Positions 1 to 19,033 of a DNA stretch of 64,000 nt are shown piece by piece. How positions within the stretch are numbered: the first letter of the stretch is position 1; every line of letters starts with the position of its first letter. The notes under the pieces are model-generated. The model was not told the DNA's origin and did not search any database. It saw only the letters and a list, made by a program, of their open reading frames with translations. Source of the DNA: Paracyclopina nana (lineage: Eukaryota > Arthropoda > Copepoda > Cyclopoida > Cyclopettidae). The position numbers and the translations under genes were made by a program. Location of the stretch: the NCBI GenBank assembly GCA_019096065.1, contig JAGUCH010000001.1, positions 8,556,001-8,620,000 of the forward strand. The letters are read 5' to 3'.

Positions 1-423
1 GACCCAAATGATATTTACGAACGAAACCTTGAACGGGTTTTGAAATTAGCTGATGCTGCGTCCAAGGATTCATTAGTACCAGTGGCTGAGTCGGTCTACC
101 ATGAAGATGCCCCACTGGATGAAAGGATTGAAGCTATCAATATTAATGAAATAATAGATGTTGAATCTGCTAGGCGAGTTGTGTTGCAAATGGTGGATCC
201 GGAGTTGTCACCTGGAAAAAAGGTCATTGAGATGCAAAAACTATTTCAGGCCTTGCAGACCAGACCTGAGTTCACCCCATTGCAGCGCAAAATCTTTGTG
301 GAATGTCACTTAAAAAGCCCTGAGGTGAGCTATGCTGTTCCCTCGTACTCGAACATTCGAAAAGTGTGTATGATCCTAAATACAATAAGGATTATATACC
401 TTTGCCTCCTAATGGGCATCTGA
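1..423 (+). CDS. Gag N-terminal segment (partial, frame 1)
   Basis: The frame is open from the first base of the window, so the true start is upstream. The segment is charged and helical-looking without a recognised motif, as expected for a matrix-like N-terminus of Gag. It stops making sense near 366, in a short GTGTG run, where the capsid-like sequence continues in another frame. The last 18 or so residues before the stop at 423 are therefore out-of-frame readthrough. This is probably a small indel in a dinucleotide run and not programmed recoding. The family is assigned by position only. Confidence 0.55.
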   Translation, partial: DPNDIYERNLERVLKLADAASKDSLVPVAESVYHEDAPLDERIEAININEIIDVESARRVVLQMVDPELSPGKKVIEMQKLFQALQTRPEFTPLQRKIFVECHLKSPEVSYAVPSYSNIRKVCMILNTIRIIYLCLLMGI

Positions 424-1514
424 AATTTGCCAATACTAGTGCCCTCAAGGAGATCAGAGCAAAGTACGCTAAGAGGTTCGATATGCAAAGTTCTTCTAAT
501 ACTGCTGATAGTGTGCTAGAATTCTTGCGCACAGTGAGCACACTGGCCCGCCGGTATGACTGGAGCCATGATGCTATAATTGAAGGTTTATGCGAAGGGG
601 CTACTGCAAGCACAGCTGAGTACTTCAGAGGTGTGGCAAGTGAAGGCGTAGAGATCCTTTGGAATGACATCTATGCTTACACCAAGAATGTCCAGGAGGT
701 AGATGAGTTTGTAAGAATACATAACATCATCAGGAACCCCACCCAGACTTTTGATCAATCCGTTAGGGAATTGTATAAACTCAGGTTGCGAATCCATAGA
801 GACTCTATGGATGGAGATGGCAAAGCACATGCCATTTCTGAGACGATCACTGATGCACATGCCCTACTGAAAAGGCATTGGCCTCAACAATACCAAGGGT
901 ATATCAATATATACCATGAGCATCTGTTGAAACAAGGTACGCCCCTGAGGAGCATGGCCGCTCTATCGGAGATGGTCAAGGTAATTGGGGGCCATGTGGG
1001 GACTCACATACCGAAAACTGAGCGAGACAGAGGGGCTAGAGATGCTAGGCTACCTATGGCCCCAGCTGTTAAACACAAAGCCCATCTTGCTATGGTTGAA
1101 GTTGATGAGGACAATTTGGACAGTGCTAGCATGCTATCAGTGATGTCACATGTTAGCTCAAAGAGTGCCAAAATAATAAGTGCTCTGCATGGTGAGTTGG
1201 CTAGAAAGAATACAGAATTGGAACGCCAAACTGCTGAAGTAGCGGCGTTAAAAGCCGAGACTGAGGCTGAGCGATCTAAAAGAATTGCAGCTACCTTTAA
1301 TATCGACATTAGTAAGCTGCCGGCGGGAAACCCATTTGAAACAGGTGGATGCCTGTTCTGCAATGGGACCCACTATGCCAAAAGTTGCGAGAACTATCCA
1401 GGTGTTTCACTGGATGAGTTAAAAAAGGATGGCACTGTGTGTATATCTTGTAAAGGATTACACAAGGTCATAAATGGATTACCGTGCTGGAAGTCGAGAC
1501 AAGCACGAAGGTAA
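366..1514 (+). CDS. Gag capsid-nucleocapsid segment with two zinc knuckles
   Basis: The first three quarters form a helical capsid-like region, followed by a Glu/Lys/Ala-rich stretch at about residues 265-315 that looks like a coiled coil. Near residue 328 comes a CX2CX3HX4C knuckle, then a second Cys/His cluster (CX2C, H, C) just before the end at about residues 358-375. Knuckles of this kind bind genomic RNA during packaging. Two widely spaced knuckles are more typical of BEL/Pao Gag than of gypsy Gag, whereas the downstream pol is gypsy-like. The listed start is a GTG that only marks the frame; translation surely enters from the upstream frame. The 3' end overlaps the next pol frame by about 60 nt in a -1 relation, where Gag-Pol recoding would be expected, but I see no canonical slippery heptamer there. 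Confidence 0.7.
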   Translation: MYDPKYNKDYIPLPPNGHLKFANTSALKEIRAKYAKRFDMQSSSNTADSVLEFLRTVSTLARRYDWSHDAIIEGLCEGATASTAEYFRGVASEGVEILWNDIYAYTKNVQEVDEFVRIHNIIRNPTQTFDQSVRELYKLRLRIHRDSMDGDGKAHAISETITDAHALLKRHWPQQYQGYINIYHEHLLKQGTPLRSMAALSEMVKVIGGHVGTHIPKTERDRGARDARLPMAPAVKHKAHLAMVEVDEDNLDSASMLSVMSHVSSKSAKIISALHGELARKNTELERQTAEVAALKAETEAERSKRIAATFNIDISKLPAGNPFETGGCLFCNGTHYAKSCENYPGVSLDELKKDGTVCISCKGLHKVINGLPCWKSRQARR

Positions 1515-4018
1515 TGTCTGAAATGGAAGAAGAACCTAAAACAGACACTACACTTGATGATTGTTATGTTCTGCCCTCATTTATGCGTGGAGAATGTAAC
1601 AAAGAAGTAGGGAGAGTGTATTTTGATCATCTAAAAGCACTCTCAGAAAAGAGAAAACAGTGCGCAAAGAGGCCTGATGAAAAAACCTCAAGTGCCATTG
1701 TTTTGGCCATATCTGGTTCTCAGTACATGAATGAGACTAAAGATGGGTTAACCCCACCTAGGATGTGGAAAGGAATATTGTTATGGGTAATTGTGATGCT
1801 AGCTTTGGTGCTGTGGCTGAACAATTATGACCAAGTCGTGCCTGTAGCGATAGTATACATTATAATAATGGTATGCTGGTGTATGTGCTGGTTTTTTCCA
1901 GACACATCCCACACGTATGATGTACCTGTACATGTGGCGAAGCTAACTGCTGGCTGCATTGAAACTCCGGATGAAAATGTACAGCCAGAAGGGATCATTA
2001 AAGATGATGACACGCTAAGTGTATTTTCCTTAAAACTACACAATGTGTGTGAAAGGTACTACATACCTGTCCAAATTACAGGCCAGATAAGACTTCATGC
2101 CTTATTTGACAGTGGAGCAATGGTTCAAATCATATCTCGCACACTAGTAAGGTTAGTTGAAGAAAAATTGGGTTACTCATTACCGCGAGTTCAAACCAAT
2201 TATCTTATTAAGAATTTCAATGGGGAAGAATTTCCCAGCACTGAAGGCGTGGTTCTGCAAGTCGCCTTTAACAATAGAGTACTGATTAGACAAGCAGTGT
2301 TCTTAGTCTCTGACTGTGAGACCCTGCTTATGATTGGGAATTCATTATTAGTAGATAACAACATACGCTTGACTAGTAGGGATGGAAGTCATTTTATTGA
2401 TTTCCCAGGGCGAATAAAATATAAAAAGATTCCCCTAGTCCTTACTAAGGAAGCGTTTTACCCTGTAGCTATAAATGAAAGTATTACTGTGCTACCTGGA
2501 AGGGAAGTGACAGTTAATGCTAGCTTTCCACATGAGATACCTTTGGTAGCTGAGCCCATTCTTGGTGATTCAGACGCCGAAGTGGACCATGATGAAGTTA
2601 AAGTAAAGCCAGAAAGTAAAAGCGTTTACTCTAGCTTTCATGATAAGTGTTTGGAATTTAGTCCGGATGAGGATTATACCAGCGCTACTGCTGAAGGATG
2701 TGTTACTTCTGTGACCCGGAAGGGCACTTTTCCAGTGCAGATAGGTAATAATTCTGACGAGCCCATTTACATTGAGGCTCATTCTATCATAGGAAAGGCT
2801 AATATTGTTAAGAAACAACGCTATAAGCCTACCCAAATAGTGCATAAGTTAAACCTCAGTTTAAAGTCTTTGAACCATATAGTGGACACTTGCTATTGTG
2901 AGTTTATTGACACGCATATTTTGGTGCAATTTGTTGACATAAATGGATTAGCTTTCACTGACATGCACACCTTTAATGAACAAGTTCACGTAAAGGGTAA
3001 TGTTAAACAAAAGCTAACCAGACATTGGAACCATGTTTTCATTGCCTCTAACCAATCTGATGGTTTTGAGGAAATCACTGATGACTTATTGATAGAGTTT
3101 GTCAGTAAATGGAACTGGAATAGCCTACCATGGGTAGTTGTTGTCCCTAGTGACAAATTATTGTCTGGGGAACAAAAGCGGATTATATTAAAGCTCAACT
3201 CTATAGTTGAAAAACTAAGTGTAGTTTGGGTAAAATACAAAAACGTTCATGATAAATGTAGGACTATAGCTCTCACTCCTATAGAGAATTACCTGGCTGG
3301 TATGGAGAGAGTGGTGCTAACTATCATGGTTCATAGTTATGATTGCTTTCCTGTTGCTTATCAAAGAAATGGAAATGATAAATATTACGAATTCACTATC
3401 TTGGGTGCTCCCACCGTCATGTATAAGATAGCAAATGATATAGAACTAATGATCCATGTGCCTTGCCCCAAATCAAGGGATGTTGGTTACATGGCTACCT
3501 TAGTTTACAATATATTTGGCCACTTACGTTACAAATGTGTGGCTGATAATATATGGGTGAGAACCTTAATGGATGGTGATGTGTCAGTAGAAGAACCTGT
3601 GTGTTTAGCAGTGTCTTCTGCATTGTTATTACTATCGGGCTTGCCTATGTATCCACATGAATCTACATTTGAGGATATAAAGACAAAGTTTGGTGGTTTT
3701 ATACCTTTTGAGTTTAAGCCAGAAAATTGTGCTTGTGCTCTTTGTCTAGCTAACCGTGCTGGGTCTAAGATAGTGTGTAAAAGTTACACTACAATATATG
3801 AAGGCCCTATAGCTGATCTTTGTGTCAGGCAAACGGTAATTAAAAACCCATCTGAATTGGACCTAGTGTCCGCTTCTTTAGAAATAACGCAAGACGAGGC
3901 AAAGAATCAGAGGCTGTATGAAGAGGTTTATAACCTTTTATTGCAGTTCCCTAGTGAATTTGACCCACATCGAAGTTCTAAATGGAGTAGCTGGCTACAC
4001 CTTTCCATTGGAACTTGA
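1454..4018 (+). CDS. Pol 5' segment: predicted membrane hairpin plus aspartic protease
   Basis: This frame opens after a TAA at 1451 and overlaps the end of Gag. Counting from the CTG at 1484, residues 96-114 and 118-138 are two strongly hydrophobic stretches separated by a short polar turn, which predicts a transmembrane hairpin. That is odd in a retroelement polyprotein. The retropepsin active site DSGA follows at residues 209-212 and marks the protease that would cut the polyprotein. Several hundred residues downstream, before RT, show no motif I recognise, so the segment is far longer than a normal gypsy protease module. It ends at 4018, while the RT frame begins inside it from 3918. That is a +1 step, likely a one-base lesion. 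Confidence 0.7.
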   Translation, partial: RITQGHKWITVLEVETSTKVMSEMEEEPKTDTTLDDCYVLPSFMRGECNKEVGRVYFDHLKALSEKRKQCAKRPDEKTSSAIVLAISGSQYMNETKDGLTPPRMWKGILLWVIVMLALVLWLNNYDQVVPVAIVYIIIMVCWCMCWFFPDTSHTYDVPVHVAKLTAGCIETPDENVQPEGIIKDDDTLSVFSLKLHNVCERYYIPVQITGQIRLHALFDSGAMVQIISRTLVRLVEEKLGYSLPRVQTNYLIKNFNGEEFPSTEGVVLQVAFNNRVLIRQAVFLVSDCETLLMIGNSLLVDNNIRLTSRDGSHFIDFPGRIKYKKIPLVLTKEAFYPVAINESITVLPGREVTVNASFPHEIPLVAEPILGDSDAEVDHDEVKVKPESKSVYSSFHDKCLEFSPDEDYTSATAEGCVTSVTRKGTFPVQIGNNSDEPIYIEAHSIIGKANIVKKQRYKPTQIVHKLNLSLKSLNHIVDTCYCEFIDTHILVQFVDINGLAFTDMHTFNEQVHVKGNVKQKLTRHWNHVFIASNQSDGFEEITDDLLIEFVSKWNWNSLPWVVVVPSDKLLSGEQKRIILKLNSIVEKLSVVWVKYKNVHDKCRTIALTPIENYLAGMERVVLTIMVHSYDCFPVAYQRNGNDKYYEFTILGAPTVMYKIANDIELMIHVPCPKSRDVGYMATLVYNIFGHLRYKCVADNIWVRTLMDGDVSVEEPVCLAVSSALLLLSGLPMYPHESTFEDIKTKFGGFIPFEFKPENCACALCLANRAGSKIVCKSYTTIYEGPIADLCVRQTVIKNPSELDLVSASLEITQDEAKNQRLYEEVYNLLLQFPSEFDPHRSSKWSSWLHLSIGT

Positions 4019-4337
4019 CACCGTCTTAAAGTTTGACCTGGACCACATACCAGTGGAAGTCAGAGAAGACTACAGGAATATATTGATAGAATATAAGGAC
4101 ATCTTCTCTGATGATCCGAGATCTTTTAGGTTATGGAATGTGGACCCCGTAAAGTTTCAATTGAAGGACAATAAACCCCTGGTACCGAAGGTGTTTAACA
4201 TGTCTGAATATGAAACCACTCAAGTGGATAGAAAGATATCATTGATGTTATCTTCTGGTCTAATTGAGATAGTAGATAAGTCTTTGAATAGGTACTCTGC
4301 TTGTCCTTGCTTCTTGACATCAAGGCCAAAGCGATGA
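3918..4337 (+). CDS. Pol: reverse transcriptase fingers segment
   Basis: This short frame carries the N-terminal part of a gypsy-type RT. It contains a stretch of the Y-K-D-I-F-S type before the palm, then the block leading to a conserved L-I-E-I-V-D-K-S motif and the S-R-P-K end that normally precedes the catalytic fingers. It stops at the TGA at 4335-4337. The next RT block continues at once in the +1 frame, which is open upstream of the stop, so one lost or gained base explains the break. It cannot act alone; as read, RT is split and this copy is probably inactive unless the break is an assembly error. Confidence 0.7.
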   Translation: MKRFITFYCSSLVNLTHIEVLNGVAGYTFPLELDTVLKFDLDHIPVEVREDYRNILIEYKDIFSDDPRSFRLWNVDPVKFQLKDNKPLVPKVFNMSEYETTQVDRKISLMLSSGLIEIVDKSLNRYSACPCFLTSRPKR

Positions 4338-4347
4338 AAAGTTACCT

Positions 4348-7300
4348 ATGAAACAACGTAAACCTAGGTTATTAGTGGACCTGACGTCCTTTAATAAGAA
4401 CCTAATTTTCACGCCATCTGAACATATTGTTCCACCTATTCCTACATTATTAGGGATGCTTTCGAACTCATGTTTGATGTCATCTTTTGATGTCACCTCA
4501 GGATATGACAATTTACCTGTCGATTCTGACAGTGCAGATATGTGCTGCCTAGCTGTGACGTCACCACGGTCTAGGTATAGAGGCCTTTATTTGAAAAGTA
4601 AGGCTATATTGCAGGGTACGGCCTTGGCTGTGAGAGAATTTTCATCTTTATTAATTCAGGCAATTAATCCTGAAATATTACCTTTCACTTGTGTCTATGT
4701 AGACGATTTATTGGTCTCTTGCAAGAATCCGGACAAACCGAAGCCGGCAACTCTAGACGATTATAAGAGGCATTTAGGTGATCTCAGGAAACTGTTTGAC
4801 AGTTTAAGGGAACTAAATGCATTATTACAAATCAACAAGACTCAATTAGGGGTCAAGGAAGCTACAGTCCTTGGACACCTCATAAAAATTGATGAGCATG
4901 GAGTTATGACGATGCAGATGCCTGATAAATACAGGACTGCGTTTGATGACTTCCCGATGCCTTCAACAAAGAAGCAATTACAAAAGTTCATTGGTATGAC
5001 CAACTGGTTAAGCCAATATTGTCCTAACATGGCCACTTACACGGCACCTCTATTGGATGTAATGGCAACTAAACAGGGGAAAACAGGGAAGTTTAACTTC
5101 TCCCCTTTTCAAGAAAAATGCTTTTACAAGGTTATAGAGGAAATAAAGACAGGAATGTCCTTGGCCTTGCCTAACTTCAAGGAAGCGTATTTAGTAGTAG
5201 ACTCGGGTGTAATAAGTACCTCAGCTCTACTTATGGAAATTGATGCCAATGGGAAGGCAGTGTGTGTTGGGGCTCACAGTGCTAGATTCCCATTGTCAGT
5301 GTGCTTGTCTTACCACTCGTTTCAGCGAGAAGCATTAGGTGTATTAATGATGATACACCACTATAAAAGTATACTCTTTGCGTATGAGCGGTTAGTGATA
5401 GTAACTGATTGTCTATCGATTGCCAGTATACTGGCTAGCTCATTTACTGGTAAAGATGCTTTTACGCACAGACTTGCAGCGAGAATATACTCCTTGCCAG
5501 TAGCGTGGAAAATACGTGCTGTGCCAAGAACTGAGATTGAAATTGTTGATATATTATTGAATAAGTATCATCAAACTGAGGGAAATACAGTGTTCTTTGC
5601 ACCGTATTCCATTCAATCGCAAATTACGAAGGACATTTATGCTGGTGTTTATCCACTCCCGGAGGAAATTTCCTCTAAAGTAATAACCACGCAGGAACTT
5701 TTGACACATGTATTTGACACTTTGGTTAATTCAGGTACTATGTCAAAGTCTTTACTACAAAAAAGATTACAATGTCTGAATGACAAGTGGGTTGAACTAA
5801 TAGGTTCCTCTCCACCTTTTGTTCATGATGACACTTCCACTATTCTTCATGCGCGTCATAAGGATGATGATGAGGTTGACAGGTTAACTGAGGTTTCGCA
5901 TTCATTTGAAGGTGAAGCTAACCCTGAATCCCCTGTCTTTGACATAGAAAACAATGTTATTGTTGACGCAATTACTGTTAAGCGTAAAATATCGGTACAT
6001 TTACCAGGAATTACACGCAACCTTCTCATACGTTTGCAACAAAACTGTGAGGAAACTCAAAAACTAGTGAACATGTTAGTTCTCACTCCTGAACACGAGG
6101 TACCTACCAGTATTGCGGCCAGGTACCGTGTCATTGATTGTGCACTTCTTGTTATTAGAAAGAATGTAAAGTTACCTTTTACGAAGGCCACCAACACGAA
6201 AGTGTATATGAGCATGCAAAATTGTGTTTACTTGATGGCCTGCATTCACCTTTTACATAACCATTTAGGAAGTAAGAAGGTGAATACCTTGTTTACACAG
6301 TCTATGTTCTCAACTTATTCTGCTAGAATAAGTAGAATAATTGTAGGTGCGTGCATGCATTGTGCACTGTATAGACAAGCAAATACAAGGTTTGTGGGTA
6401 AGGGCAGATTCCGTATTCCGGATAAGCCCTTTGACCTTGTTATGATTGACCTTGCTTACTTTGATCAAACTTTAGTCAAAGGAAAGGATGCCAAAGTATG
6501 CCTAGTTATTATCGATGTTTATTCGAAAATGATAATAGCTAAACCTTTGTTAAATTCCACTTACAGGGAGGTAGCTACTGCTATGGAAGAAGTAACCTCC
6601 TTGTTTGGTGTGCCTAAAACCTTATTGGCTGATAATGGAGCGCAGCTTACTAGTAACCATGCCCTCCAGCGCTTGATTGACAAGTATAAAATACAGGAAT
6701 TGTGCCAATACAGAACACTGTCACCAAACAAACATTCAAATGCTTATGCTGAGAACAGTGTTCGTGTTTTGAGGAATGCTTTAATACTAAACTCCAAGTC
6801 ATATAAGCGGCCTATGAGTGAAGTATTTAAACTGTCTGTATATGCCATAAATAACCGCCCACTAACTTATTTATCATATACTGACCCGAATGGAGTCAAA
6901 GTAATACCTACTCCATTCTCTCTATTCTTTGACAAAATGCCAGGTTACCACCTTGGACGTGATGTCTTTGAAATATTGAGCGAAAGTGAGGACATCATAC
7001 ATAAAGCTGAATGGCAGGATGTCATGAGGACGTATGATGAGGAAGAGCAAAGACGTTTTGAACTAATGAAAGCCACTGAAAGGCCTTCGTTTAAACCTGA
7101 AATTGGTTCATTAGTCTTAGTTATTAAACATCCTGTGAATAAGCATGGGTACAAATTCATGCAGGATCTATTTGAGGTGATTGATGTGGGGTCCCACTCC
7201 ACTGTGACAGTAAAACCTTATTTGCATGATGGACTAACTCGTGAAGTCAGTCTGGATCATGTAAAGTTGTACCGGTTTCATGAGTTATATAAGTTCTTAC

Positions 7301-8997
7301 CTGAAAAGATAACTCATTTGCTTATGCGGCCTTACACTCCTGATGAGATGTTACAACGTCTTTCCAGGAATGAAATGCTTAAATTCTTGGAGGAGGATGA
7401 GCCTGAAGTAAATGAGTATGCATTGCGAAATCGAGTGTCACAAAGTATTGCCGCTCGAGATGAAGCGAAAAGTGAATGGGCTTCCAACGTAACAGAAGAA
7501 CTTATTACTGCTACTTCTTCGCTAGGAACCTCTACCATAAAGGATCACCAAACCTTGAAACATTCTGGATCTATACTGCGGAAGAAGGCTACTGATTTGT
7601 TTAAGCCCTCTGATGTGCGTCGCATCCAGGAGGAAAATCGTAGAATTGTTAAGCAGCAATGGGACAATTATGTACCTAAACCACCGCCTAATGAAGGTGT
7701 GACTGATTCTGCTGATTCTGCTCATATGAAGGAAGGTTCGTACCTTTCTCCGGATGAACAGAAGGCTGATAAACTCATTGACCAGTTACTCGAATCTAGT
7801 AGCAAAACATATGAGACTACCCTCTACGAGGAGCTTAAGTCTCTCCAATCGGAAGATTTACCCACTTTTGAAGACTTGGCTGCAAAAGGGAAGGTATTCC
7901 TCGAAGTACCGAAATCCACTCGACCACGCAGCCCCAGTCAAATAAGTACACCTACTAATATGACTGGGACACTATTGAATGATGATGTCAGTCCAGTTCC
8001 TCGTGCTTTTAGAGGTCGAAGGTCACCGCGCCCCAGCCCCAAAAGCCCAGAACAGGAAGAAGCTGACATCTCAAAAGTAGTGAGCGAGGCCTCGTTGCTT
8101 ATAAATCAAGATAAGTTTGATACGGATCTTGAATCGCTAGCTTCAGCACTAGAAAATGTAGGTGAATTCATAGATGATGAATATATAGACAGCCAACCAC
8201 TATATCAGCCTACAATTGCTGATGTGCTAGAAACCTTTGAATCTGAGAAAGATTTTGAAGAGACTCTATCTAAAGTAATGGCGGAGAACAGAAAGTTTTC
8301 TCCTGATACAAAAAACCGATTTCTAGATGCCTTTAAGCGAGGCTCACAATTACTAAAGAAAAAACTCTCTATGTCGCCAAAGAAAAATGACAAAGAAGAG
8401 GATGGAAATCAAAGTATAAAAAGTAATGTAATTCCGTCAGCCCCCACACGGGAACAAATATACGAGACAGATATGTTACAAAATGATAGTGAGTCTTCTA
8501 GTACTAGTTCTCCGGAAGATGAATTGTTATCACCAATTAAGGAAGCCGCAGTGCCTGGGGCCAGTGATGAAGTGGAGCCGGAAGGTGCTGCTGCAGCGAT
8601 ACCTCTAAAAATTCTCCAGCGTCCTCGTGAAGGGCTACGAGACAAACCAAGAGTTGATTATAAAGCGATGGTAACACGCCGATATAATAGAAAATTACCT
8701 ATCCACTATAATCCTGGACATCCACGTGAGTCTGCGCTCACTCCAGAGGAACGTGAATTGGCCCGGATCAAATACTCGTTCAGGAATCCTAGGCCAAAAC
8801 CTAATGAAAAATATATTTTACAGAAGGTGGTTCCTGCTTGGAGGAAAGATACTAACGTGGCAACGGTCCAAGATTACTCCAAGTTCCTGGAAGCAGGTGG
8901 CTTAGACCACTTGAATGATAGTTTTGTACAAGAGCTGAAAAAGTTGAGGCTGAACCGCCACGAACTCTATCTGCTGGTACATAAACAATTCAAGTAA
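4348..8997 (+). CDS. Pol: RT palm, RNase H, integrase and long acidic tail
   Basis: Reverse transcriptase: the palm includes S-F-D-V-T-S-G-Y early on and the catalytic YVDD at residues 117-120. The connection segment with a K-F-I-G-M-type motif is characteristic of Ty3/gypsy. RNase H spans about residues 280-400. Integrase has an N-terminal H-H-C-C zinc module (about 631-672, ending CMHC) and a DDE core with Asp701, Asp762 in LADNG and Glu802. A GPY/F- or SH3-like C-terminal module lies near 915-975. From about residue 1000 to 1549 there is an acidic, Ser/Pro-rich, low-complexity tail with no motif I know; ordinary gypsy pol ends shortly after integrase. The frame also opens slightly upstream of this ATG (from 4339), continuous with the RT fingers apart from the break. 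Confidence 0.9.
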   Translation: MKQRKPRLLVDLTSFNKNLIFTPSEHIVPPIPTLLGMLSNSCLMSSFDVTSGYDNLPVDSDSADMCCLAVTSPRSRYRGLYLKSKAILQGTALAVREFSSLLIQAINPEILPFTCVYVDDLLVSCKNPDKPKPATLDDYKRHLGDLRKLFDSLRELNALLQINKTQLGVKEATVLGHLIKIDEHGVMTMQMPDKYRTAFDDFPMPSTKKQLQKFIGMTNWLSQYCPNMATYTAPLLDVMATKQGKTGKFNFSPFQEKCFYKVIEEIKTGMSLALPNFKEAYLVVDSGVISTSALLMEIDANGKAVCVGAHSARFPLSVCLSYHSFQREALGVLMMIHHYKSILFAYERLVIVTDCLSIASILASSFTGKDAFTHRLAARIYSLPVAWKIRAVPRTEIEIVDILLNKYHQTEGNTVFFAPYSIQSQITKDIYAGVYPLPEEISSKVITTQELLTHVFDTLVNSGTMSKSLLQKRLQCLNDKWVELIGSSPPFVHDDTSTILHARHKDDDEVDRLTEVSHSFEGEANPESPVFDIENNVIVDAITVKRKISVHLPGITRNLLIRLQQNCEETQKLVNMLVLTPEHEVPTSIAARYRVIDCALLVIRKNVKLPFTKATNTKVYMSMQNCVYLMACIHLLHNHLGSKKVNTLFTQSMFSTYSARISRIIVGACMHCALYRQANTRFVGKGRFRIPDKPFDLVMIDLAYFDQTLVKGKDAKVCLVIIDVYSKMIIAKPLLNSTYREVATAMEEVTSLFGVPKTLLADNGAQLTSNHALQRLIDKYKIQELCQYRTLSPNKHSNAYAENSVRVLRNALILNSKSYKRPMSEVFKLSVYAINNRPLTYLSYTDPNGVKVIPTPFSLFFDKMPGYHLGRDVFEILSESEDIIHKAEWQDVMRTYDEEEQRRFELMKATERPSFKPEIGSLVLVIKHPVNKHGYKFMQDLFEVIDVGSHSTVTVKPYLHDGLTREVSLDHVKLYRFHELYKFLPEKITHLLMRPYTPDEMLQRLSRNEMLKFLEEDEPEVNEYALRNRVSQSIAARDEAKSEWASNVTEELITATSSLGTSTIKDHQTLKHSGSILRKKATDLFKPSDVRRIQEENRRIVKQQWDNYVPKPPPNEGVTDSADSAHMKEGSYLSPDEQKADKLIDQLLESSSKTYETTLYEELKSLQSEDLPTFEDLAAKGKVFLEVPKSTRPRSPSQISTPTNMTGTLLNDDVSPVPRAFRGRRSPRPSPKSPEQEEADISKVVSEASLLINQDKFDTDLESLASALENVGEFIDDEYIDSQPLYQPTIADVLETFESEKDFEETLSKVMAENRKFSPDTKNRFLDAFKRGSQLLKKKLSMSPKKNDKEEDGNQSIKSNVIPSAPTREQIYETDMLQNDSESSSTSSPEDELLSPIKEAAVPGASDEVEPEGAAAAIPLKILQRPREGLRDKPRVDYKAMVTRRYNRKLPIHYNPGHPRESALTPEERELARIKYSFRNPRPKPNEKYILQKVVPAWRKDTNVATVQDYSKFLEAGGLDHLNDSFVQELKKLRLNRHELYLLVHKQFK

Positions 8998-9008
8998 CCT
9001 GATAAAAT

Positions 9009-10898
9009 GACCAGAATCTGGTCTTTATTTGGTATTCGTAAGATGCCACATTTTCATATAGTAAGTACGGTGGCCATGCTTTTTACGAAAACAAACATTA
9101 CCAGCTAGTAACTGGTAATGGAATACTAAAAGTGTAAAGAAAAAGGTTATATTTTGCCTATTGCTTTAACCATAACCGAGTGTGGTCATGCTTTCTAAGT
9201 ATATACATTTGTACCATAAAGCACTTATGTATATGGGGAATCGTGATGCACAAAGGCCAAATACTCCCGTGGCAGATGCCAGAAAGTATGAAATAAAGTG
9301 AACAAAATATTGCTGCGTCTGATTTAACAAAATCAGTGTGTAGGGTAATATGTCATCACCAGGGAATGGAGCCTCTTATTAGGCCCCTGATACTGTTATA
9401 GCTAGTATACTAAGAACGTCATGCAAATAAAAATCTGATTTGGCGTAACTTAGGATGCTGGCTTCAGATGTATGATAAAATCTTGCAGAACTTTGCCCCT
9501 AGGCAATTGGAAGTTGCAAGTGGGGTTGATCAAAGTGATCAGTGGGGCGCAGCCTTTATGCCACTCCCACTGATGATATTACTATAAAATTAACGAAGTG
9601 CCTGATGCACTGTGGCTATGTTCAAATGGAACCCTTGAACAACGCATAGATGCGAATGGTACGATGTGTGGAACTGTTTTCGAGCTTATAACTTGAAAAT
9701 AACCCGAACAAAATGTCACGAATGATTACAAATTCGTGTACCTTTTTTACGATTTTTTACTCATCAGTGAAATGCTTAGCCAGCACAATAGCACTGGCGT
9801 CAGCGTTACAATATTATAAAATATAAGGCATTTATGTCTTGCTACCTTTTAATAGAACACTATTTGTCTCCAAAAGATGATAAGTGAAAACCATTTGCAA
9901 CCTTTTGGGGGCAGCTCTGGTGTGACTAGCTCCATACCAGTGTGCGACTGCAAGTGCAAATGGGGTTGATTAAGGTTGATTAAGCAAAAATCTTGCTTCC
10001 ATTATGGACTTCAGAGTTGACCGCCTCTTTGATAAAATCTTAATGAGGCGATGTAAGAGTTCAGCATAAAGGATAATTGCTGGAATTCTACGCTTGAGTT
10101 CCACGAAGGTGGAAAACTCAAGCTATAAACTAAATGCGAAATGTACGCCACCCTCGGACTGAACCGAACAAGGGCACTCGCATAAGATTACCACTACTAT
10201 CGGCCACTTGGCACGTAGTGTAATATAAATAAAATGAATGATAAAATAAGGTGTGTGCTGAACAACTAGGGCACATCAATTCTTAACATCATGGACGAGA
10301 AGTATCAGGCTGCCACCTGATACTTGCATACTATATGGATTTGATAAAAAGAGCAAGAATAAAATAGGGGAGCTCAGTAGCGCCTCTTGGCTACTTCTTC
10401 TTGTCCCACGTACAGCTCTTTCAACTGAGCGTGTACTATACAATATTGCCAAGCTTCCAGATGGAAAAGCAATCTGCTTAAGCTGCAAAAAGACTTTGGC
10501 CAACTTGACAAGTGCCAATCGACATTTCAATATGAATCAAAGAACGGGTCGCCATTCTTTAATCGCAGCGCTGCCCAGCCATGGGTGGGCGTGGGCTAGC
10601 GCAATAATAGCCTACGTTGCATTAAGCAACTTTAAAAATAAAAATTAGAAGACAAAAATGAAGGATGCGACACCCTTGCAAGCGGGTCGCCGTTCTTCAT
10701 GCACTGCTCTGCCCGAATTGGGCTAGAGCAAGCGCGATAATAGATTACGTTGCATTAAGCAACTTTAGAAACGTTCTTGGCCACAGCGTCCTGTGACCAT
10801 GTTTATTTAAAAAATTATTATTATTTTATTAGTACTGAGCAAAAGGATACTTACCTGAAGACTGCCAAGTTTTGGAAGGATTTTCCTCCCAAAACCTG
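9009..10898. repeat. Stem-loop-dense non-coding segment after pol
   Basis: No reading frame is convincing here, but perfect or near-perfect inverted repeats with short loops recur. They include 9009-9023 (6 bp, 12 bases after the pol stop), 9096-9120 (9 bp), 9319-9336 (7 bp), 9360-9388 (nested 5+4 bp), 9482-9520 (6 bp enclosing 5 bp), 9597-9611 (5 bp), 9620-9640 (6 bp), 9643-9654 (5 bp), 9717-9738 (7 bp), 10092-10123 (7+6 bp with a GAAG loop), 10300-10325 (10 bp) and 10866-10898 (about 10+4 bp with one mismatch). A similar sequence ending in TGGGGTTGAT occurs near 9512 and 9948, suggesting old duplication. Inference: the element's transcript, or its single-stranded cDNA, folds extensively here. 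Role unknown. Confidence 0.7.
10546..10767. repeat. Imperfect direct duplication, about 138-bp period
   Basis: Copy 1 is 10546-10635 and copy 2 is 10684-10767. Both begin GGGTCGCC and end with the same 20 bases or so around ACGTTGCATTAAGCAAC, with a diverged, GC-richer middle. The identical ends with a changed middle resemble the hairpin units further downstream. No coding frame is shared between the copies. Confidence 0.75.
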
Positions 10899-11593
10899 AG
10901 CTTCTTGGGTAGGGGGGGTACCCAGAGCCAGAGCACGCACAAGCCAGAGAGCGAGTGCGCGCTGTCACTAAAAATTCCAAAAAAATGGAGGCGTCCTTAA
11001 AACAGACGCGACCACATCTAGTTTGAGGCGGTTTTACCCCTTTGTTAAAGCAAGCTGAAGTCTAGACCGAAACAGCCCAAGAATTCCAAGGGAACAGTCT
11101 GCCCTAAAACTATAACAATGCACACCAATAGGAAAAACGTAGCGCTTATATTATAACATCCTGGCCCGCGTCAGGGTGCAATTATATAAGGGGTGTGGCG
11201 CCACCTAGAGACCAAGGGGCCCGCGCCCATTTGAAAACGTTTTTGCTAAATTAGCAGATAATTTTGCAAAATAAGCAGACTGCAAACTAAAACATTGTAG
11301 TTTTGCTCGGGAAAAAGATATCCAAAAGCGACTGGATTTGTCAAAATTCTGCCAAATTCTAATAAATGCTGAGTAGCCTTTGCAGAACTTTCCCTACAAG
11401 ATATGTACACGTATGGAAATTTGAGCATTAAGGTAAACTAAGCTAAAGTTCTTGCTCGGTCAGCTGAACAAGCTTCTATATAAAAAAGCTGACTTATATC
11501 AAAAAATCTGTCTATGATATTTTGGGTGCAGTGACCACTGAAACCATTAGTAAAAGTGTGCTGGCTGCAACGTATGTGACGTAGCCGTAGCCT

Positions 11594-13868
11594 CCAGGGG
11601 GCGCGACTATCCCCATATAACTGTGGCAAGGATGATGCATATTTTATGCAACAACCTAGTACCTGAAACAGTACATCATTGGTGCCGTTATGCATGGCTT
11701 AATAAGTTGACCAGACCAATACTAAGTTTGGCAAGGAGTTTATAGAAAACATCCGGACTTGATTATGTATTCAAAGATAGATATCATGATGCTTGGTCAT
11801 GAATTGAGCTAGAACCTACTGGAAACCATACTTTATTATCTTTTTGTTCCTCGTCTGGTTCTATGGTTTTGCCCTGGGACCAGATTGAGTTGCAAAGGTG
11901 ACTGATGCCGCAGAGTACGCGCCTTATAAAAAGGCCGATAATTGCTCTAGTAGCTCTTGCTTTTCCGTCCTATAACCGAGCTATCTGTACTGGTACTCAG
12001 TCACAAATAAGCACAATTTTTATGTGGCCCCATTTTGGGCCTTTAATGATAACTAGACAAAGCTATAAGGTAAAGCTTTACAATGAAAACGATAAACAGT
12101 GAGTGCTCGTTTACCATTACATGGAAACAAATAAATAGTACTCAAACAGGTTATGTGTCTGTGCCTAAAGTTGGCCTTTAGCGAGCCAGAAGTTTTGGGT
12201 TGGATGAGGGACAATGACCCTTCTGAACAGACAATGAACTGCCATGAGTTGAGTAATGGTTATTGCTTGGCAAAAAACATTATTGAACGTCTTCCCCGCT
12301 GTGTGGTTTTGCTAGAAGATGAAAATAATGGCAGACACTGCCCATAAAAAGCAATGGTACGGCAGACAGTAAATGGGTAAAACGTTACAAACGTTGCAGT
12401 TAATAGTACTGAGGGTTGCGCCAGAGGGCGCTCCATGGCTCGTTGACTATGCTGCACCTGAAAATTACTGCCTGCCTGCGAAGCGAAACCCGAAATAATA
12501 GCTTTGCAGGTATGTGCTTGGGGCTGTAATACATAGCCTTCTTTACTGTAGCTGCAGGTGGCTTAAAAATGGCTATTCATGCTACAAGTATGAGAATGTT
12601 CAATGTAAATGAGAAAATGGTTTGATGGTTGCTAAACAAAAATGTACGAACAAACCATTACTTTATGACAACTTTGTGCTTGTCTGCTTCTGGGGTTCTG
12701 TCCCCAGGAGTAGGTACCGTGCAGTAGCATTCAGTGGTCTGTCATGTAGCAGTACACTGGAATCTTACTAAAAGCTTCCAGTTAGAAAGCGCTTAATATA
12801 AGCTTATGGCCATAGGACCACTGTCTGCTAATAGTCACACAATATTTGTAGGGCTTCGAGCCCATTATAATGTATTATGTGTGGCCTAAGAACACTTATG
12901 ATGCTTATAAAAAACTTGAAAAAAAAGTCATGTTCTATGAGCAATAATGTTAAGCGTGGAGGCTAGTAAAGCTAGCTGACATGATGCTACTATAATTTTG
13001 CACTTCCTGTAAATCGTTCGATTTTAGGGCTCAACCACTGTGCAAAATGGGGCGATCTGATCTGGAACGTGTTACTGAGGCTCCAGACTTAGCTGAAAAT
13101 AACTTTCTCAGTGAAAGAAGTAAGCTTGCCCACCAACAAAATGATCGCTAAGATAATGGCGATAAAGAATGCGAGATAAGCTGTGTACGCTGGCATTTTA
13201 CTTGCTTGCGCCTTATGAGCATAAAGGTTAGTACAGCAGTGAAGCTCGCTAGATGGTGCCGCTAGCCAAAAGAGTGGCTGGAACGGACAGTAAAGTTTGC
13301 AATATACAAAAGGTGTAGCAAAGGAACTATTTCCATTTGCTTCATCGACAAAATATGATCTAGAGGGATCATGAATGCGCACATGCTTTGTGGATAAGAA
13401 CTACGTAGCACGCTATAACTTGAGAAGTGTGCAAACGAGGAGCATATCGCCACATTGTACGTAAAGAAAATGTGCATCAATAAAGGCATTTAACTTTGTG
13501 ACTCTGTTTGTGCTTGGGGTTCTGCCCCCTACAAGCCAAATGAGACGCTGCCGTAATAGTGGCCATAAGCTGAGTAGTTGCCTCTCCACCTCAGGTTAGA
13601 CTCATAAATGAGCTCTTGGCAAATGGCGCTAATTACACGAAGGCAGTTAATTTTTGTGGGGCTCAAAAGCGAGCCCTATCATTAAAATATAAGATATGAG
13701 GGCATTGACTTGGAAAAGTTCTGAGCGTGCTGATGTGAAAAAGAGCTCATGATAATAACCGGTGCTTCTTATGCGCCAATGAGAATGCAAATATCATCTT
13801 AGCACTCAGTCTAAGAACGAAACGTTATGAATATAAATTACCGCTGTGTTAGTGCTAGGGGGCGCCAC
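11594..13868 (+). promoter_or_regulatory. CTCF-like zinc-finger motifs, one per array unit
   Basis: Four sites resemble the bilaterian CTCF core (CCA..AGRKGGCGC): CCAGGGGGCGC at 11594-11604, CCAGAGGGCGCT at 12421-12432, CTAGATGGTGCC at 13249-13260 and CTAGGGGGCGCCAC at 13855-13868. A further copy on the minus strand, CTAGGTGGCGCCAC, is at 11195-11208. All four plus-strand copies are in the same orientation and at a constant distance from the following hairpin. Established: CTCF is a conserved insulator protein in arthropods and vertebrates, and the Drosophila gypsy element carries an array of Su(Hw) insulator sites. Inference: this may be a built-in insulator. The match is by eye; binding is unproven. 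Confidence 0.5.
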
Positions 13869-14306
13869 GGGTGGTAATCGTGAATCATTAATTCCACCAG
13901 TAATGTCATGCCATTATAGCGTAGAGGCATGAGAACCAAGGAGCAGTGCTTTAATGTGGACTTATTATTAATGTGCATCGAGAACCTTGCTGAAGTTTTG
14001 AAAGGTGTCGAGGCTAATATGTACTGCGTCTTTTATCAAAAGAGAAAATAAGACTGATGGAAAGATGGTACCGCAGTGTGTGCTAAACAGACCATATTTT
14101 TGTTCACTTTTTGTTCCTAGTCTCAGCTTGGGTTTTGCCCCTTGCTTGAGCTAAGGTGCGTAAGGCATCTGGGATCAGAAGAATAAAGCGATGCTCCAGG
14201 GGCTAGTCCCTTGGTTTATGGGCTTGAACTTTCTTCTTTTCTCTGCTTATGACACCTGATTTCGGATGCCTCCACGCACCCGTATTTTTGTTGGGCGATG
14301 GCGCCC
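11594..14306. repeat. Array of four degenerate units: CTCF-like motif, hairpin 1, hairpin 2
   Basis: Hairpin 1 has a GGTTYTG(C/T)CCC apex at 11865, 12694, 13518 and 14131. Its arms differ but pair: 11854-11884, 12687-12710, 13512-13536 and about 14122-14150. Hairpin 2 lies at 12026-12041 (GGCCC/GGGCC), 12851-12863 (GGGCT/AGCCC), 13659-13676 (GGGCTC/GAGCCC) and 14293-14306 (GGGCG/CGCCC). Each copy is preceded by a T-rich stretch ending in GT or GTG and followed by AT-rich sequence resembling TTAAT. Hairpin 2 starts 161, 157, 141 and 162 bp after the hairpin 1 apex. The CTCF-like motif lies 269, 271, 267 and 274 bp before the apex. Apex spacing is 829, 824 and 613 bp. Most of the sequence between these landmarks is not alignable by eye. 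Sequence change with preserved pairing implies selection on structure. Confidence 0.75.
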
Positions 14307-14756
14307 CTTAATATAGCTAATATGGAAAGTAATCTGTTCGTCGCACCGTACAGAATTTTATGTGCAAGTGCTGAACCGAGTACGAGAAGGTTATTGTTAT
14401 TACCTGCTCACGTGAGGTGACGAGATAAGACCTTAACCTCTGATTTTCTGCTATGGCTTTCTACCTGTGGAGCTAATTATAATGTGCGTGACGAACGCTG
14501 TAAATGTAGCTTTTCGCTGAGATGCGTGAAAAAGTGCGAATTAGCTATATACGCACATGAGAATATTGTAGTCGGCAAGGCTCAAGTTATGCCATGCTAA
14601 CGTAAATATGATATGATAAGATGAGGCAGGCAAAGCAATTCGGCACTTGAAGAAGCCGTAGTTTTTGCTGAGGCCCAGACGATGATAAGTTGCTCAGCTC
14701 AGAAAACGCGAAATGATTTGCGAAAACTCAGATATCAGAAGTAAGGTGGAACTGGC

Positions 14757-14762
14757 TTTATT
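14757..14762 (-). terminator. Candidate polyadenylation signal for antisense transcript
   Basis: AATAAA on the minus strand lies downstream of the GC-rich antisense exons. It follows a last putative exon that starts at 14844 after a pyrimidine-rich TTTTTGCAG acceptor. This fits a 3' end for antisense transcription through 15.3-14.7 kb. Confidence 0.4.
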
Positions 14763-14902
14763 GCCTGAAGGGAGGCGAGGCCGGGCCCGGCGGAAGGGTG
14801 GGCCGGGGGTGCGCCCTGTCGCCCCTCCTCGAAACCAGACAGTTCTGCAAAAATAAAAGACAGTGTCAAGGGTGATTTCATTAATCCTGATAAGGACACT
14901 TA

Positions 14903-15348
14903 CTACACCACGCCCTCGAGGGGGTCCTCGGTCTCGGGGATCCCGAGGAGGCCGAGGACCCAGCGGGTCACCCGGGGGAGCTCCTCTGGCTCGGCCCAGA
15001 CTCGGCTGACGAGCCGATACAGCCCCCGGGGCTTGGCCCGGTTGACCCAGACCAAGCCCGGGAGCACCACCCCATAATAGGTGGCCGCCGCTGCCACGTT
15101 TATGGCGATGCCCTAGAGAATCTCTTCGGCCTGCAATGAAAAGGAAGATCGCTAAAGGGATCTAATCTGTTATGAAAAGAACTTACAACACCATCCCCCT
15201 GGCAGGTTTGGCCTTGAAGGCCCGCCAGCTGGCCTGCGGGCTCCGGGGGCAGCAGGACCGCGGACTCGGCCGCGGCCTGCCCCCCTTCGACGGGAAGGTG
15301 GGCGGGGGCAGCCGTTGCTGCTGCTGCTGCTGTTGTTTGTTCGTTTGA
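14903..15348 (-). CDS. GC-rich antisense exon pair, unknown protein fragment
   Basis: Exon 15187-15348 starts after a TTTTACAG acceptor and ends at a GTAAGT donor. It encodes 54 residues with a Gln/Thr/Ala-rich start and Ala/Gly/Pro-rich body, in phase 0. The next exon can start at 15112 (CTCTAG acceptor) and reads 69 residues to a TAG at 14903-14905, overlapping another GTAAGT donor. A stronger-looking acceptor just upstream (exon start 15130) would give an in-frame stop after five codons, so the exact splice is unsure. GC content is far higher than in the flanking AT-rich DNA, which suggests captured host or foreign sequence. I recognise no domain. It may be a separate gene or a 3' part of the antisense gene at 15831-16840; no upstream start is identified. 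Confidence 0.4.
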
Positions 15349-15830
15349 CTGTAAAACATAAAAATGTTGTTTTATGTATAAGATTGCACTGGAATTTAAA
15401 GATTTCTGTTTGCACTTACGAAAAAACCGTCCAAAAATGGGGCCATCTTGGAAAGAATGCTAACTGTAGCGCTACCAAGTAATTTGTCACTTATATGAGT
15501 AAGAAGTTAACCAAAAGTGCCAAAATAAAAGGAACACTTGCATTAGCTCATAAAAGCAGCCCTGACTGCTATGCCGGCATTCTTGGTTGATGTAACTACC
15601 ACACTTGGCGGTATCGAACTTGTGTTATGAATATATGACTATTAGGGCATTAGTGCTTTTATTAGTTTATTGGATCTGTCAATGCTTATGTAAATAAAAA
15701 CAATAACATAGTGCTAAAACAGACCGCATAAAATGAATAATTTCCACCCGAAAAGTTGCACTTGACGAGTGGGATGACTAAGTGTAAGACTATTGGGCCC
15801 CGCGAGGTCTGATGAGGTCGCCATGGATCA

Positions 15831-16840
15831 CTAATTGGTGGGCTCTGCTACAGTGCTTGACAATGCGTGGGTGGCCTCGTTTGGTAGTTCTTGGATCACT
15901 GCCCCAGTGGTCCTCGGGACATTGACGTAGAACTGGCTCCGGTTGCGGCGCCTTTTGTTCCTTCTCCGCTTAGAGCGTTGGCTTTCATCTGTTTGCCCCT
16001 GTAAAAAAAAGGGCACCTGATGAGGATCTAAGGTACACAAAACGCATGGAGCAGACATCTTCATTGAGCTTTGATCCCATTAAGGAAACGAACAATTACT
16101 TACTTGTCCCAGTGGCCGCAGCACATCATAGATGGGCTCGTTCAATGATGGGCGTGAAAAGGTGGAGACATGGTAAGGGGGCGTGCCTCCACGCACCAAG
16201 ATCATGTTATCAAAATTGGACAATGGCAATGAAGGCAACGGTCTCCTACTCATAGTTTCGTAAAGTTCCGGGAAAGAGGGGTTTGCCAATGGCAAGGCCA
16301 GAGGCTCCAGCTCAACCTGGTCAATGACCTCTGCGTTCTCAACGCAGGCTCGGCATAGACAGCACCGCTTGCACCTCTTGTACAGGCGGTACAAGAAGCA
16401 TGTGACCATGATTAGAAGAAGCTACGATGGCGAGGAAAAGTATTAATGACTAGCCTTGCTTAAATTCAATGGTCATAATTGGACTCACCAAAATGATCAC
16501 TAGGGCCGCTACCAGGCCAACCCAATCCTGAACGCTGTACTGATCGAATTCGAAGAAACTTCGGGATGACGGTACAGAGGGGTCGATCTCCGCGGTATCC
16601 TTTGGAACAGACTCCATAGAGGTTGCAACCTCAGGGAGGACTAGTAGAGGCCGTGGTAACCCTAGTTGGGGGTGCTGCAGTCGCCATTGTTGAAGTCCTT
16701 GTCCAAGACTCGGGCAAGGTCCACCTAGTGGTGGTTGCAAGGGTCTTTGCAGTGGGACGAACTGTCGTTGGCAATGTGCTAGTCATTGCTGTTGTAGTTG
16801 TAGCCGCCGTAGTGGTGGTGGGCAACTGGAGGAAACCCAT
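15831..16840 (-). CDS. Antisense spliced gene: Thr-rich single-pass membrane protein
   Basis: On the minus strand, exon 1 runs from an ATG at 16840 to 16489, exon 2 is 16421-16104 and exon 3 is 15998-15831 (TAG). Introns of 67 and 105 nt have clear donors (GTGAGT, GTAAGT) and acceptors (CGTAG, a T-run then ACAG), and both junctions are phase 0. Exon 1 codes a Thr/Pro-rich, mucin-like ectodomain, then an acidic stretch and a transmembrane helix that is completed across the first junction. Exon 2 gives a juxtamembrane Arg/Lys/Cys cluster (KRCKRCC) and a Pro-rich cytoplasmic part. Exon 3 has an Arg/Lys-rich block. Exon 1 is broken: the Thr-rich part and the membrane part are in different frames, joining near 16640-16660. 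A signal peptide is not visible after the ATG, so an upstream exon may exist. The family is not recognised. Confidence 0.55.
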
Positions 16841-17148
16841 GACTTATGTATATAAACAACTGTAAAGTTGGGCTATTATAAGTTCAAGGGTTGATATGCT
16901 GCTGAAGACTGCGTGAAAGCTGACCAGGGCATTGCCTTTTATGCAAGAGAGCTTGACGTATGTTGCAAGACCGAGACTTGAGCAGTGGAATTTGTTGACT
17001 CAGCATCTTGGAGACAAGAGCAACGATTTCAGCGGGGAGAAATGATTCACCTCGGCAACGAGAAAATTGCGCACTATAATATGAACGTGCTGGAGAAATT
17101 ATGGTAATAATAACGCTGTGAGGCGCTGTTGGTTACCTGGTTGAGAGC
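16841..17148. other. Spacer between antisense gene and 532-aa ORF
   Basis: About 300 bases with no convincing frame. It must hold the 5' side of both the antisense gene and the sense ORF, so it may be a divergent promoter region. A minus-strand TTTACAG at about 16863-16869 could be an acceptor for an upstream antisense exon. Confidence 0.3.
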
Positions 17149-17183
17149 TATAAAAGAAGGGGTGGAAATGAGCAGGTTCCAGT
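17149..17183 (+). promoter_or_regulatory. Possible core promoter for 532-aa ORF
   Basis: TATAAAAG at 17149-17156 is followed 32 bp later by TCCAGTC, a weak initiator match with the A at 17181. If used, transcription would begin downstream of the ATG at 17168 and translation at the ATG ATG at 17186. The evidence is weak because the initiator does not match TCAGTY exactly. Confidence 0.3.
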
Positions 17184-18766: not shown

Positions 18767-18972
18767 ACATTGTATTTTGACTTTGTTGTAGATATGGATT
18801 ATGAGTTTTGATCTAATTTGCTAATTGGACCTCGGGTTCTAAGTAGGTTAGACTCGAGATATACGGTATTATAAAGTAAGATATGGTCTTGTGCGCACCT
18901 GACTATACTAATAAATGTTTAGTGGGGAAGGCTGGCTCGCTTGCCTTGCCCGAAACAAGTACCTGTTGTACA

Positions 18973-19008
18973 TATAAAGGCGGCGTAGGCCTGGGGCCTA
19001 GTCAGTTT
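18973..19008 (+). promoter_or_regulatory. TATA/Inr core promoter of the envelope-like gene
   Basis: TATAAAGG at 18973-18980 is followed by TCAGTT at 19002-19007. The initiator A at 19004 lies 31 bp from the first T of the TATA box. This is the canonical arthropod geometry and exact TCAGTY consensus. The first ATG of the envelope-like ORF (19034) would then have a 30-nt 5'UTR. It suggests the gene has its own promoter instead of relying only on a spliced LTR transcript. Confidence 0.55.
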
Positions 19009-19033
19009 TTACTTGACATTCGCTGAGTTAATA

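Follow-up and report, generated by a model that had tools for sequence, protein, structure and literature searches.

Four repeated units in a Ty3/gypsy-like element

The sequence analyzed here, which we call the window, is a 64-kb stretch (C1:8556001-8620000) of a 92-Mb, 10-contig animal genome assembly, and it encodes the animal proteins polybromo and the largest subunit of RNA polymerase II (Pol II), the latter with YSPTSPS repeats. The left 21 kb of the window are a large Ty3/gypsy-like long terminal repeat (LTR) retroelement. Our subject is a set of four repeated units in a noncoding stretch of this element (∼9.0-14.7 kb), which lies between pol and two further open reading frame (ORF) regions. 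The units have promoter signals like those of the host's small nuclear RNA (snRNA) genes, and we propose that they encode RNAs of a similar kind.

A sequence-only reading of this DNA had located the units inside a retroelement, and the coding regions agree. The element has a gag-like ORF of 396 amino acids (324..1511, plus strand; assigned from its position and without a Pfam match), an ORF with a weak aspartic protease match (1454..4015, plus), and a pol ORF (4318..8994, plus) that combines reverse transcriptase (Pfam, 1.6e-9), RNase H, and integrase (3.1e-8) with a long C-terminal extension. Neither the protease match nor the RNase H match reaches its Pfam cut-off. Protease, reverse transcriptase, RNase H, and integrase stand in Ty3/gypsy order, and the relatives are of Ty3/gypsy type: the 22 homologues listed for the reverse transcriptase part are 18-27% identical and have Ty3/gypsy-type polyprotein domains, and the named animal ones carry the names Ty3-G or 297. 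By its predicted domains, the carrier of the four units is thus a large Ty3/gypsy-like LTR element.

Each unit has a CTCF-like motif, [CT]AG[AG][GT]GG[CT]GC, found on the plus strand at 11596, 12423, 13251, and 13857. The motif is followed by a hairpin (hairpin 1) whose apex, GGTTYTGYCC, occurs at 11865, 12694, 13518, and 14131 and nowhere else in the window; further copies of the motif core lie at 17445 and 53671 (plus) and 11206 (minus). The sequence-only reading had described a spacing of 267-274 bp between motif and apex, an apex of the form GGTTYTG(C/T)CCC in all four units, and a second hairpin 141-162 bp later. We measured spacings of 269, 271, 267, and 274 bp, found the apex at the four claimed sites, and found hairpin 2, with the four stems that had been listed, beginning 161, 157, 140, and 162 nt past the apex in units 1-4. 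The observation itself is therefore confirmed; the explanation that we give for it is a different one.

The array recurs in related copies, both near and diverged. A blastn search of the same genome gave at least 13, 16, 13, and 15 matches to units 1-4, respectively. Twelve near-identical loci, including the window, were read; the hairpin-1 apex is kept in all four units at 11 of them, and the remaining locus has lost unit 3. Five diverged loci (on C4, C5, C6 twice, and C9) match at 76-79% identity, mainly in the part from hairpin 1 to hairpin 2, and hold another 12 units arranged alike, nine of which have an exact motif core, 251-274 bp ahead of the hairpin-1 match. Within the 9 kb fetched, four of the five diverged loci encode homologues of the element proteins, with main stretches 48-82% identical, and the relative L020 has none there.

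The motif recurs upstream of host snRNA genes

Pol II-transcribed snRNA genes have a distal sequence element (DSE) and a proximal sequence element (PSE), in the terms of PMC5493778. We examined 31 host hits to such genes (7 U1, 9 U2, 4 U4, and 11 U5), with doubtful U5 and U2 hits retained in all counts. The motif core, in the definition taken from the retroelement units, occurs with at most one mismatch at −265 to −222 on the same strand in 24 of the 31 genes, nine times exactly (U1, 3/7; U2, 7/9; U4, 4/4; U5, 10/11). Across 27 equally sized control windows, the count averaged 0.5 and never exceeded 3/31, and the opposite strand gave 2/31. Motif discovery on the host genes alone recovered this motif, and no upstream signal shared by these genes was stronger; the log-likelihood score was 171.5 in −275 to −225 compared to 49-83 in six other windows.

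The host genes share a second signal, CAA[AT] with the C near −57, which is present in 26/31 genes versus 1-8/31 in slid windows. The unanchored motif search for this PSE was noisy, and an anchored analysis was used instead. A reading of the CTCF-like motif as the PSE was dropped after the upstream DNA of host U1 and U5 genes had been read. Judged by its sequence, strand, and position, the motif is the putative DSE (∼−240) of this host's snRNA genes, and the counts suggest that it serves the majority of this animal's snRNA genes. For the human U2 genes, PMC4802788 and PMC5493778 place CTCF downstream of the gene and not at the DSE.

Promoter signals of the four units

A combined DSE and PSE model trained on the host genes alone scored units 1-4 at 29.4, 23.6, 15.0, and 22.4, against a maximum of 17.6 in a null of 6,000 other window positions. 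Because this maximum lies below the scores of units 1, 2, and 4, their p value is 0.00017; that of unit 3 is 0.0032. All four units have a host-type DSE at ∼−240 on the same strand: 11590..11607 in unit 1 (19.6 bits), 12417..12434 in unit 2 (17.7 bits), 13245..13262 in unit 3 (14.9 bits), and 13851..13868 in unit 4 (16.7 bits), all on the plus strand. The host-trained model places a PSE at ∼−57, 172-210 bp from the DSE, in three units: TCAAAG at 11771..11783 in unit 1 (plus; 9.8 bits; 181 bp from the DSE), TCAATG at 12600..12612 in unit 2 (plus; 5.9 bits; spacing 183), and TCAAAAG at 14036..14048 in unit 4 (plus; 5.7 bits; spacing 185). For unit 3, a weak PSE candidate, GCAAACG (13431..13437, plus), was read from the sequence and not from the model. 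In the relatives, 10 of 12 units, several of them near-duplicates, reach p ≤ 0.0032.

When the whole window was scanned at a fixed threshold, the model matched six sites, compared to 1.95 on average and 4 at most in Markov sequence. Five of the six fall within 9-15 kb, a region with a Markov mean of 0.21 (maximum, 3). The matches are units 1, 2, and 4, an opposite-strand site at 11212 (PSE 11026, start 10969), 14967, and 41476. A scan for 4-mers, made without the host model, points to the same proximal signal: CAAA is the only shared 4-mer more than 40 nt upstream of hairpin 1, it occurs in 9 of 12 nonredundant units, and no 4-mer in 60 shuffles matched this prevalence. The pattern [TG]CAA[AT] lies 97-70 nt ahead of the apex in 15/16 units, versus 0-8/16 in nonoverlapping control windows, a range that leaves out one window overlapping the signal (14/16).

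Predicted RNAs and their structure

With the host distance from PSE to start, the model predicts starts at 11828, 12657, and 14093, which are 37-38 nt ahead of the apex; model starts in the relatives are 18-39 nt ahead of it. The start of unit 3 (∼13488) is our own reading from GCAAACG and not a model output. The sequence at the predicted starts is ATACTTT in unit 1 and ATTACTTT, ATTTAACTTT, and CATATTTTT in the others. The predicted RNAs, all on the plus strand, would be ∼190-215 nt long. Each would start with a U-rich, single-stranded leader and continue through hairpin 1, an arm that a long helix closes, an AAUUUUURUG-like stretch, and a terminal hairpin, which is hairpin 2 of the sequence-only reading. 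An Sm site followed by a 3′ terminal stem-loop is the arrangement of the U snRNAs.

The unit 1 RNA (11828..12042) would comprise hairpin 1 at ∼11852-11889, the Sm-like AATTTTTATG at ∼12015-12024, and the terminal hairpin at 12026-12041. The Sm-like stretch and the terminal hairpin are AATATTTG (∼12841-12848) and 12851-12863 in unit 2 (12657..12865), AATTTTTG (∼13649-13656) and 13658-13676 in unit 3 (13488..13677), and TATTTTTG (∼14283-14290) and 14293-14307 in unit 4 (14093..14308). Fold z-scores of units 1-4 are −5.4, −4.2, −1.9, and −3.8; 40 random windows averaged −0.24, reached −8.5 at the lowest, and had their 5% point at −2.1. Runs of five T's within units 1, 3, and 4 argue against transcription by Pol III.

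Across a 12-unit set, from which the near-duplicates L018m_1 and L019m_1-3 were removed, the UUYUG loop of hairpin 1 is nearly fixed and its outer arms vary. AT.TTT ahead of the terminal hairpin is invariant (12/12), and the terminal hairpin was recognized by eye in 11/12. The arms of hairpin 1 prefer their own partners over those of other units (swap permutation p = 5e-5; 11 units, L018m_2 also being left out), as do the arms of the closing helix (p = 5e-5, the same 11 units). In the 12-unit alignment, hairpin 1 has double changes in 7/14 pairs, and 23 cells show a double change compared to 7.4 ± 2.8 in shuffles, none of 500 being as high. Two other measures were weaker, with the count of double-change pairs equaled in 9/500 shuffles and the number of pair types in 55/500. 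In five class-2 units, the closing helix has double changes in three pairs. The proposal that pairing had been kept despite base changes thus holds strongly for hairpin 1 and more weakly for hairpin 2 (below).

The RNA part is 70-84% identical across six orthologous unit pairs, and the DSE-PSE spacer and the downstream DNA of orthologues are at 57-63%, versus 59-61% when shuffled. Among the window's own four units, the RNA part is at 61-66%, near the shuffled level. The sequence-only reading had described the DNA between the landmarks as largely diverged; this is so among the four units and in the spacers, but not in the RNA part of orthologous units. Its further suggestion, that spacing and structure are under selection, is supported. 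Homology of unit 1 to the C9 relative by blastn spans exactly 11828-12028 and so begins at the predicted start.

A unit on the opposite strand

The opposite-strand match of the whole-window scan heads a further unit. Its DSE (11195..11212, minus; 16.7 bits) is followed by the PSE TCAAAC (11014..11026, minus; 4.1 bits; spacing 186) and by a predicted RNA (10778..10969, minus) that includes a T-rich stretch and, at 10779-10798, a terminal hairpin; the fold z-score over 10775-10969 is −5.95. The RNA contains CAGGTAAGTAT (10847-10857, minus), the exact complement of ATACTTACCTG, which is the 5′ end of six of the seven host U1 genes. GGTAAGTATCCTTTT is invariant in all five aligned rows (window, L017, L018, L019, and L021), and the region past the predicted start is likewise conserved in the aligned relatives; L020 gave no match. 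In the relatives, the spacing between the DSE and the best PSE is kept (181-188), but the PSE is weak (−3.6 to 4.6 bits) and the Sm-like stretch is poorly conserved. We gave up reading ATACTTACCTG at 10847 as a U1-like sequence of the plus strand because the promoter and the conservation fit a unit on the opposite strand. Candidate identities for the predicted product are a U1-binding decoy, an RNA akin to spliced leaders, and exon 1 of an antisense transcript.

L017, L018, and L019 contain another block of this kind, which is more diverged. Two 71-nt direct repeats at 10568-10771, 77% alike and 133 bp apart, adjoin the opposite-strand unit. The unit itself (11212-10778) was absent from the sequence-only reading, as were the long closing helix, the second promoter signal, and the array in diverged relatives.

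CTCF and its motif

Our CTCF matrix is a vertebrate one. With this matrix, the motif exceeds 9 bits at units 1 (21.8) and 2 (12.4) only among the four, so that the label CTCF-like is strong for these two, units 3 and 4 both being under 9 bits; the opposite-strand motif reaches 18.8 bits. Between 11500 and 14400 there are three matches of at least 11 bits compared to a Markov mean of 0.24 (maximum, 2): units 1 and 2 and a site at 13520 (minus) that falls outside the unit motifs. A CTCF orthologue exists in the host, the best match being 56% identical over zinc fingers that we take to be ZF4-ZF10, with the next best at 38%; two in-frame stops lie within an insertion that resembles an intron. Since there is an orthologue, CTCF itself may still bind the motif in the units.

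Other features of the element

Two ORF regions lie 3′ of the RNA cluster (17114-18763 and 18989-20915), both without a Pfam match. The first has homologues in the relatives L017, L018, and L019, and a search of viral contigs gave none for the ORF at 17114. In the second, what looks like a membrane segment lies close to the C terminus, and this region may be envelope-like; a homologue search with the ORF at 18989 returned nothing at E ≤ 0.001. A DNA search against phage records gave no match. On the minus strand at ∼15000-16900, several 5′ splice site-like sequences and coding-like stretches were seen by eye, which suggests a spliced minus-strand gene within the element. A possible 3′ LTR, also found by eye, ends the element at ∼21400-21760; the 5′ end of the element lies beyond the window.

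A further conserved noncoding block (9857-10057) is 77-84% identical in L017 and L018. The L017 copy has a DSE-like motif (16.9 bits) upstream, and no clear PSE was found there. Similar blocks of 33-34 nt at 9503-9536 and 9944-9976 (79%), around GGGGTTGATYAA, are perhaps remnants of another unit class.

Discussion

The four units match the promoters of host snRNA genes, have a conserved RNA part, and keep base-paired helices. Motif, strand, and distances equal those of the host promoters, and the hairpins belong to a predicted snRNA-like transcript; since the signals and distances are those of splicing-RNA genes, the element may make small RNAs of its own. We therefore consider it likely that each unit is a gene for an Sm-class, snRNA-type noncoding RNA and that the Ty3/gypsy-like element bears this cluster in its noncoding stretch. 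We infer that the unit RNAs are transcribed, capped, and assembled with an Sm ring.

A number of observations weigh against this reading, and several of them concern unit 3. Its best PSE in range scores 0.1 bit and lies at a different place from the candidate GCAAACG, two relatives of its class fail the promoter model (p = 0.16 and 0.21), and its fold z-score of −1.9 is no better than that of its own spacer (−2.0). At the whole-window threshold this unit is missed, and the matches at 14967 and 41476 may be chance. For units 2, 3, and 4, the complement strand has a similarly low fold z-score. The predicted starts agree with the limits of homology in one class only: homology begins 7-25 nt past the start in units 2 and 3 and 32-59 nt ahead of it in unit 4. 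In L020, the start of unit 1 is 18 nt ahead of the apex, giving a shorter leader. Covariation of the terminal hairpin is modest (swap p = 0.014; 10 units, L021m_1 being left out as well), and in the C9 relative this hairpin was not recognizable. The class-2 closing helix is partly broken in two of five rows, with an unfavorable covariation term (+1.36). RNAalifold on all 12 units recovered hairpin 1 alone, because the unit classes are not alignable in the middle; for the closing helix the arm-swap test took the place of a joint alignment. An Rfam search over 9,000-24,000 found no family at E ≤ 0.5. Twenty-four comparisons of the leaders with possible targets (one copy each of U1, U2, U4, and U5, the opposite-strand RNA, and the LTR region) yielded no convincing pairing, the best shuffled fraction being 0.04.

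How else might the array be explained? The sequence-only reading had offered an insulator, a folding or packaging element, or a processing scaffold, none of which is now the best reading, as the match to host snRNA promoters fits better. In the insulator reading, host CTCF would occupy the motif array and screen the element off from neighboring chromatin, like the Su(Hw) array of Drosophila gypsy, and the hairpins would be incidental; this reading can draw on the host's CTCF orthologue and on the high matrix scores at two units and the opposite-strand motif. Yet the other two units score under 9 bits, and an insulator leaves unexplained the PSE, the fixed distance, the covarying RNA structure, and the occurrence of the motif at −240 in the host's snRNA genes. 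We demoted the insulator because the motif was found at those genes, and we regard it as quite unlikely; the two ideas could be compatible, with CTCF acting as the DSE factor. Alternatively, the units could be structured domains of the genomic RNA, such as packaging, export, or dimerization signals, rather than separate transcripts. Such domains would accord with hairpins that are conserved within noncoding DNA and lie in the same sense as gag-pol, and with homology limits that do not pinpoint the predicted starts in classes 2-4. However, genomic RNA domains predict neither host-type promoters at fixed distances ahead of them nor an opposite-strand unit with the same promoter, which makes this explanation very unlikely.

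The units could also be passive passengers: the element would have taken up snRNA-like genes or pseudogenes of the host in a single event and propagated them since, gaining nothing from them. Their promoters are of host type, and they lack similarity to known Rfam families, as decayed or lineage-specific RNAs would. Nevertheless, compensating changes keep the helices across four unit classes and several relatives, and the RNA parts are conserved where the spacers are saturated. In addition, the blastn matches listed for units 1-4, for one relative unit, and for the opposite-strand RNA all fall at the 12 near-identical and five diverged loci (a diverged host source would escape detection), and four of the five diverged loci also encode element protein homologues. 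We hold the passenger explanation to be unlikely.

If the units are snRNA-type genes, their mode of action could be as follows. The host snRNA machinery at the PSE would bring in Pol II, helped by the DSE factor (CTCF or a protein of the same specificity), and Pol II would make short RNAs that end past the terminal hairpin. Sm proteins would then assemble on the T-rich site of the predicted RNAs, which could form stable nuclear ribonucleoproteins (RNPs), like the viral RNAs of Herpesvirus saimiri (HSURs). The U-rich leader might base-pair with element or host transcripts and so shape their processing or silencing. This last part, RNP formation and leader pairing, is the weakest step of the explanation, and we consider it somewhat doubtful; a guide or decoy role of the leader is favored by analogy with the HSURs. 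It is tempting to go further and picture a retroelement with its own snRNA gene set, four Sm-class RNAs plus an opposite-strand, U1-complementary 5′ splice site RNA, that steers the splicing and processing of its own transcripts or those of the host, with host CTCF or a factor of the same motif as a general activator of snRNA genes. We offer this larger picture tentatively, as a possibility rather than an expectation.

If the proposal is true, reverse-transcribing elements can carry autonomous RNP genes despite their RNA intermediate, and it raises a tractable question, namely, how such RNAs benefit a retroelement.

Comparison with known systems

In the literature searched, which lacks most subscription papers, we found no report of snRNA-type genes in a retroelement. 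To our knowledge, virus-encoded Sm-class RNAs are known from herpesviruses only, as HSURs, and small-RNA gene clusters of retroviruses only as Pol III microRNAs. The host's own U1, U2, U4, and U5 genes resemble the units in having a DSE at ∼−240, a PSE at ∼−57, an Sm site-like sequence, and a terminal hairpin; the units differ in matching none of these families and in sitting in a mobile element. Drosophila gypsy is an LTR element in which an array of zinc finger-type Su(Hw) motifs forms an insulator. By contrast, the units have one motif per ∼600-830 bp, tied to a PSE and to RNA structure. The opposite-strand unit is reminiscent of spliced-leader RNAs in its perfect 5′ splice site, T-rich stretch, and terminal hairpin, but its predicted exon of ∼115 nt is long for a leader.

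HSURs have snRNA-type promoters and U-rich 5′ ends. They are virus-encoded noncoding RNAs of the Sm class, and the Sm class is predicted for the units as well. HSURs differ in that they come from a DNA virus of primates, whereas the units lie in a reverse-transcribing element of an invertebrate-like genome, have other sequences, and bear a host-specific CTCF-like DSE. Bovine leukemia virus (BLV), a retrovirus, has a cluster of small-RNA genes, as is predicted for the element; the BLV cluster uses Pol III and yields microRNAs, whereas the units have predicted Pol II, snRNA-type promoters. The nearest known kinds are the viral Sm-class RNAs, represented by the HSURs, and the retroviral small-RNA clusters, represented by BLV.

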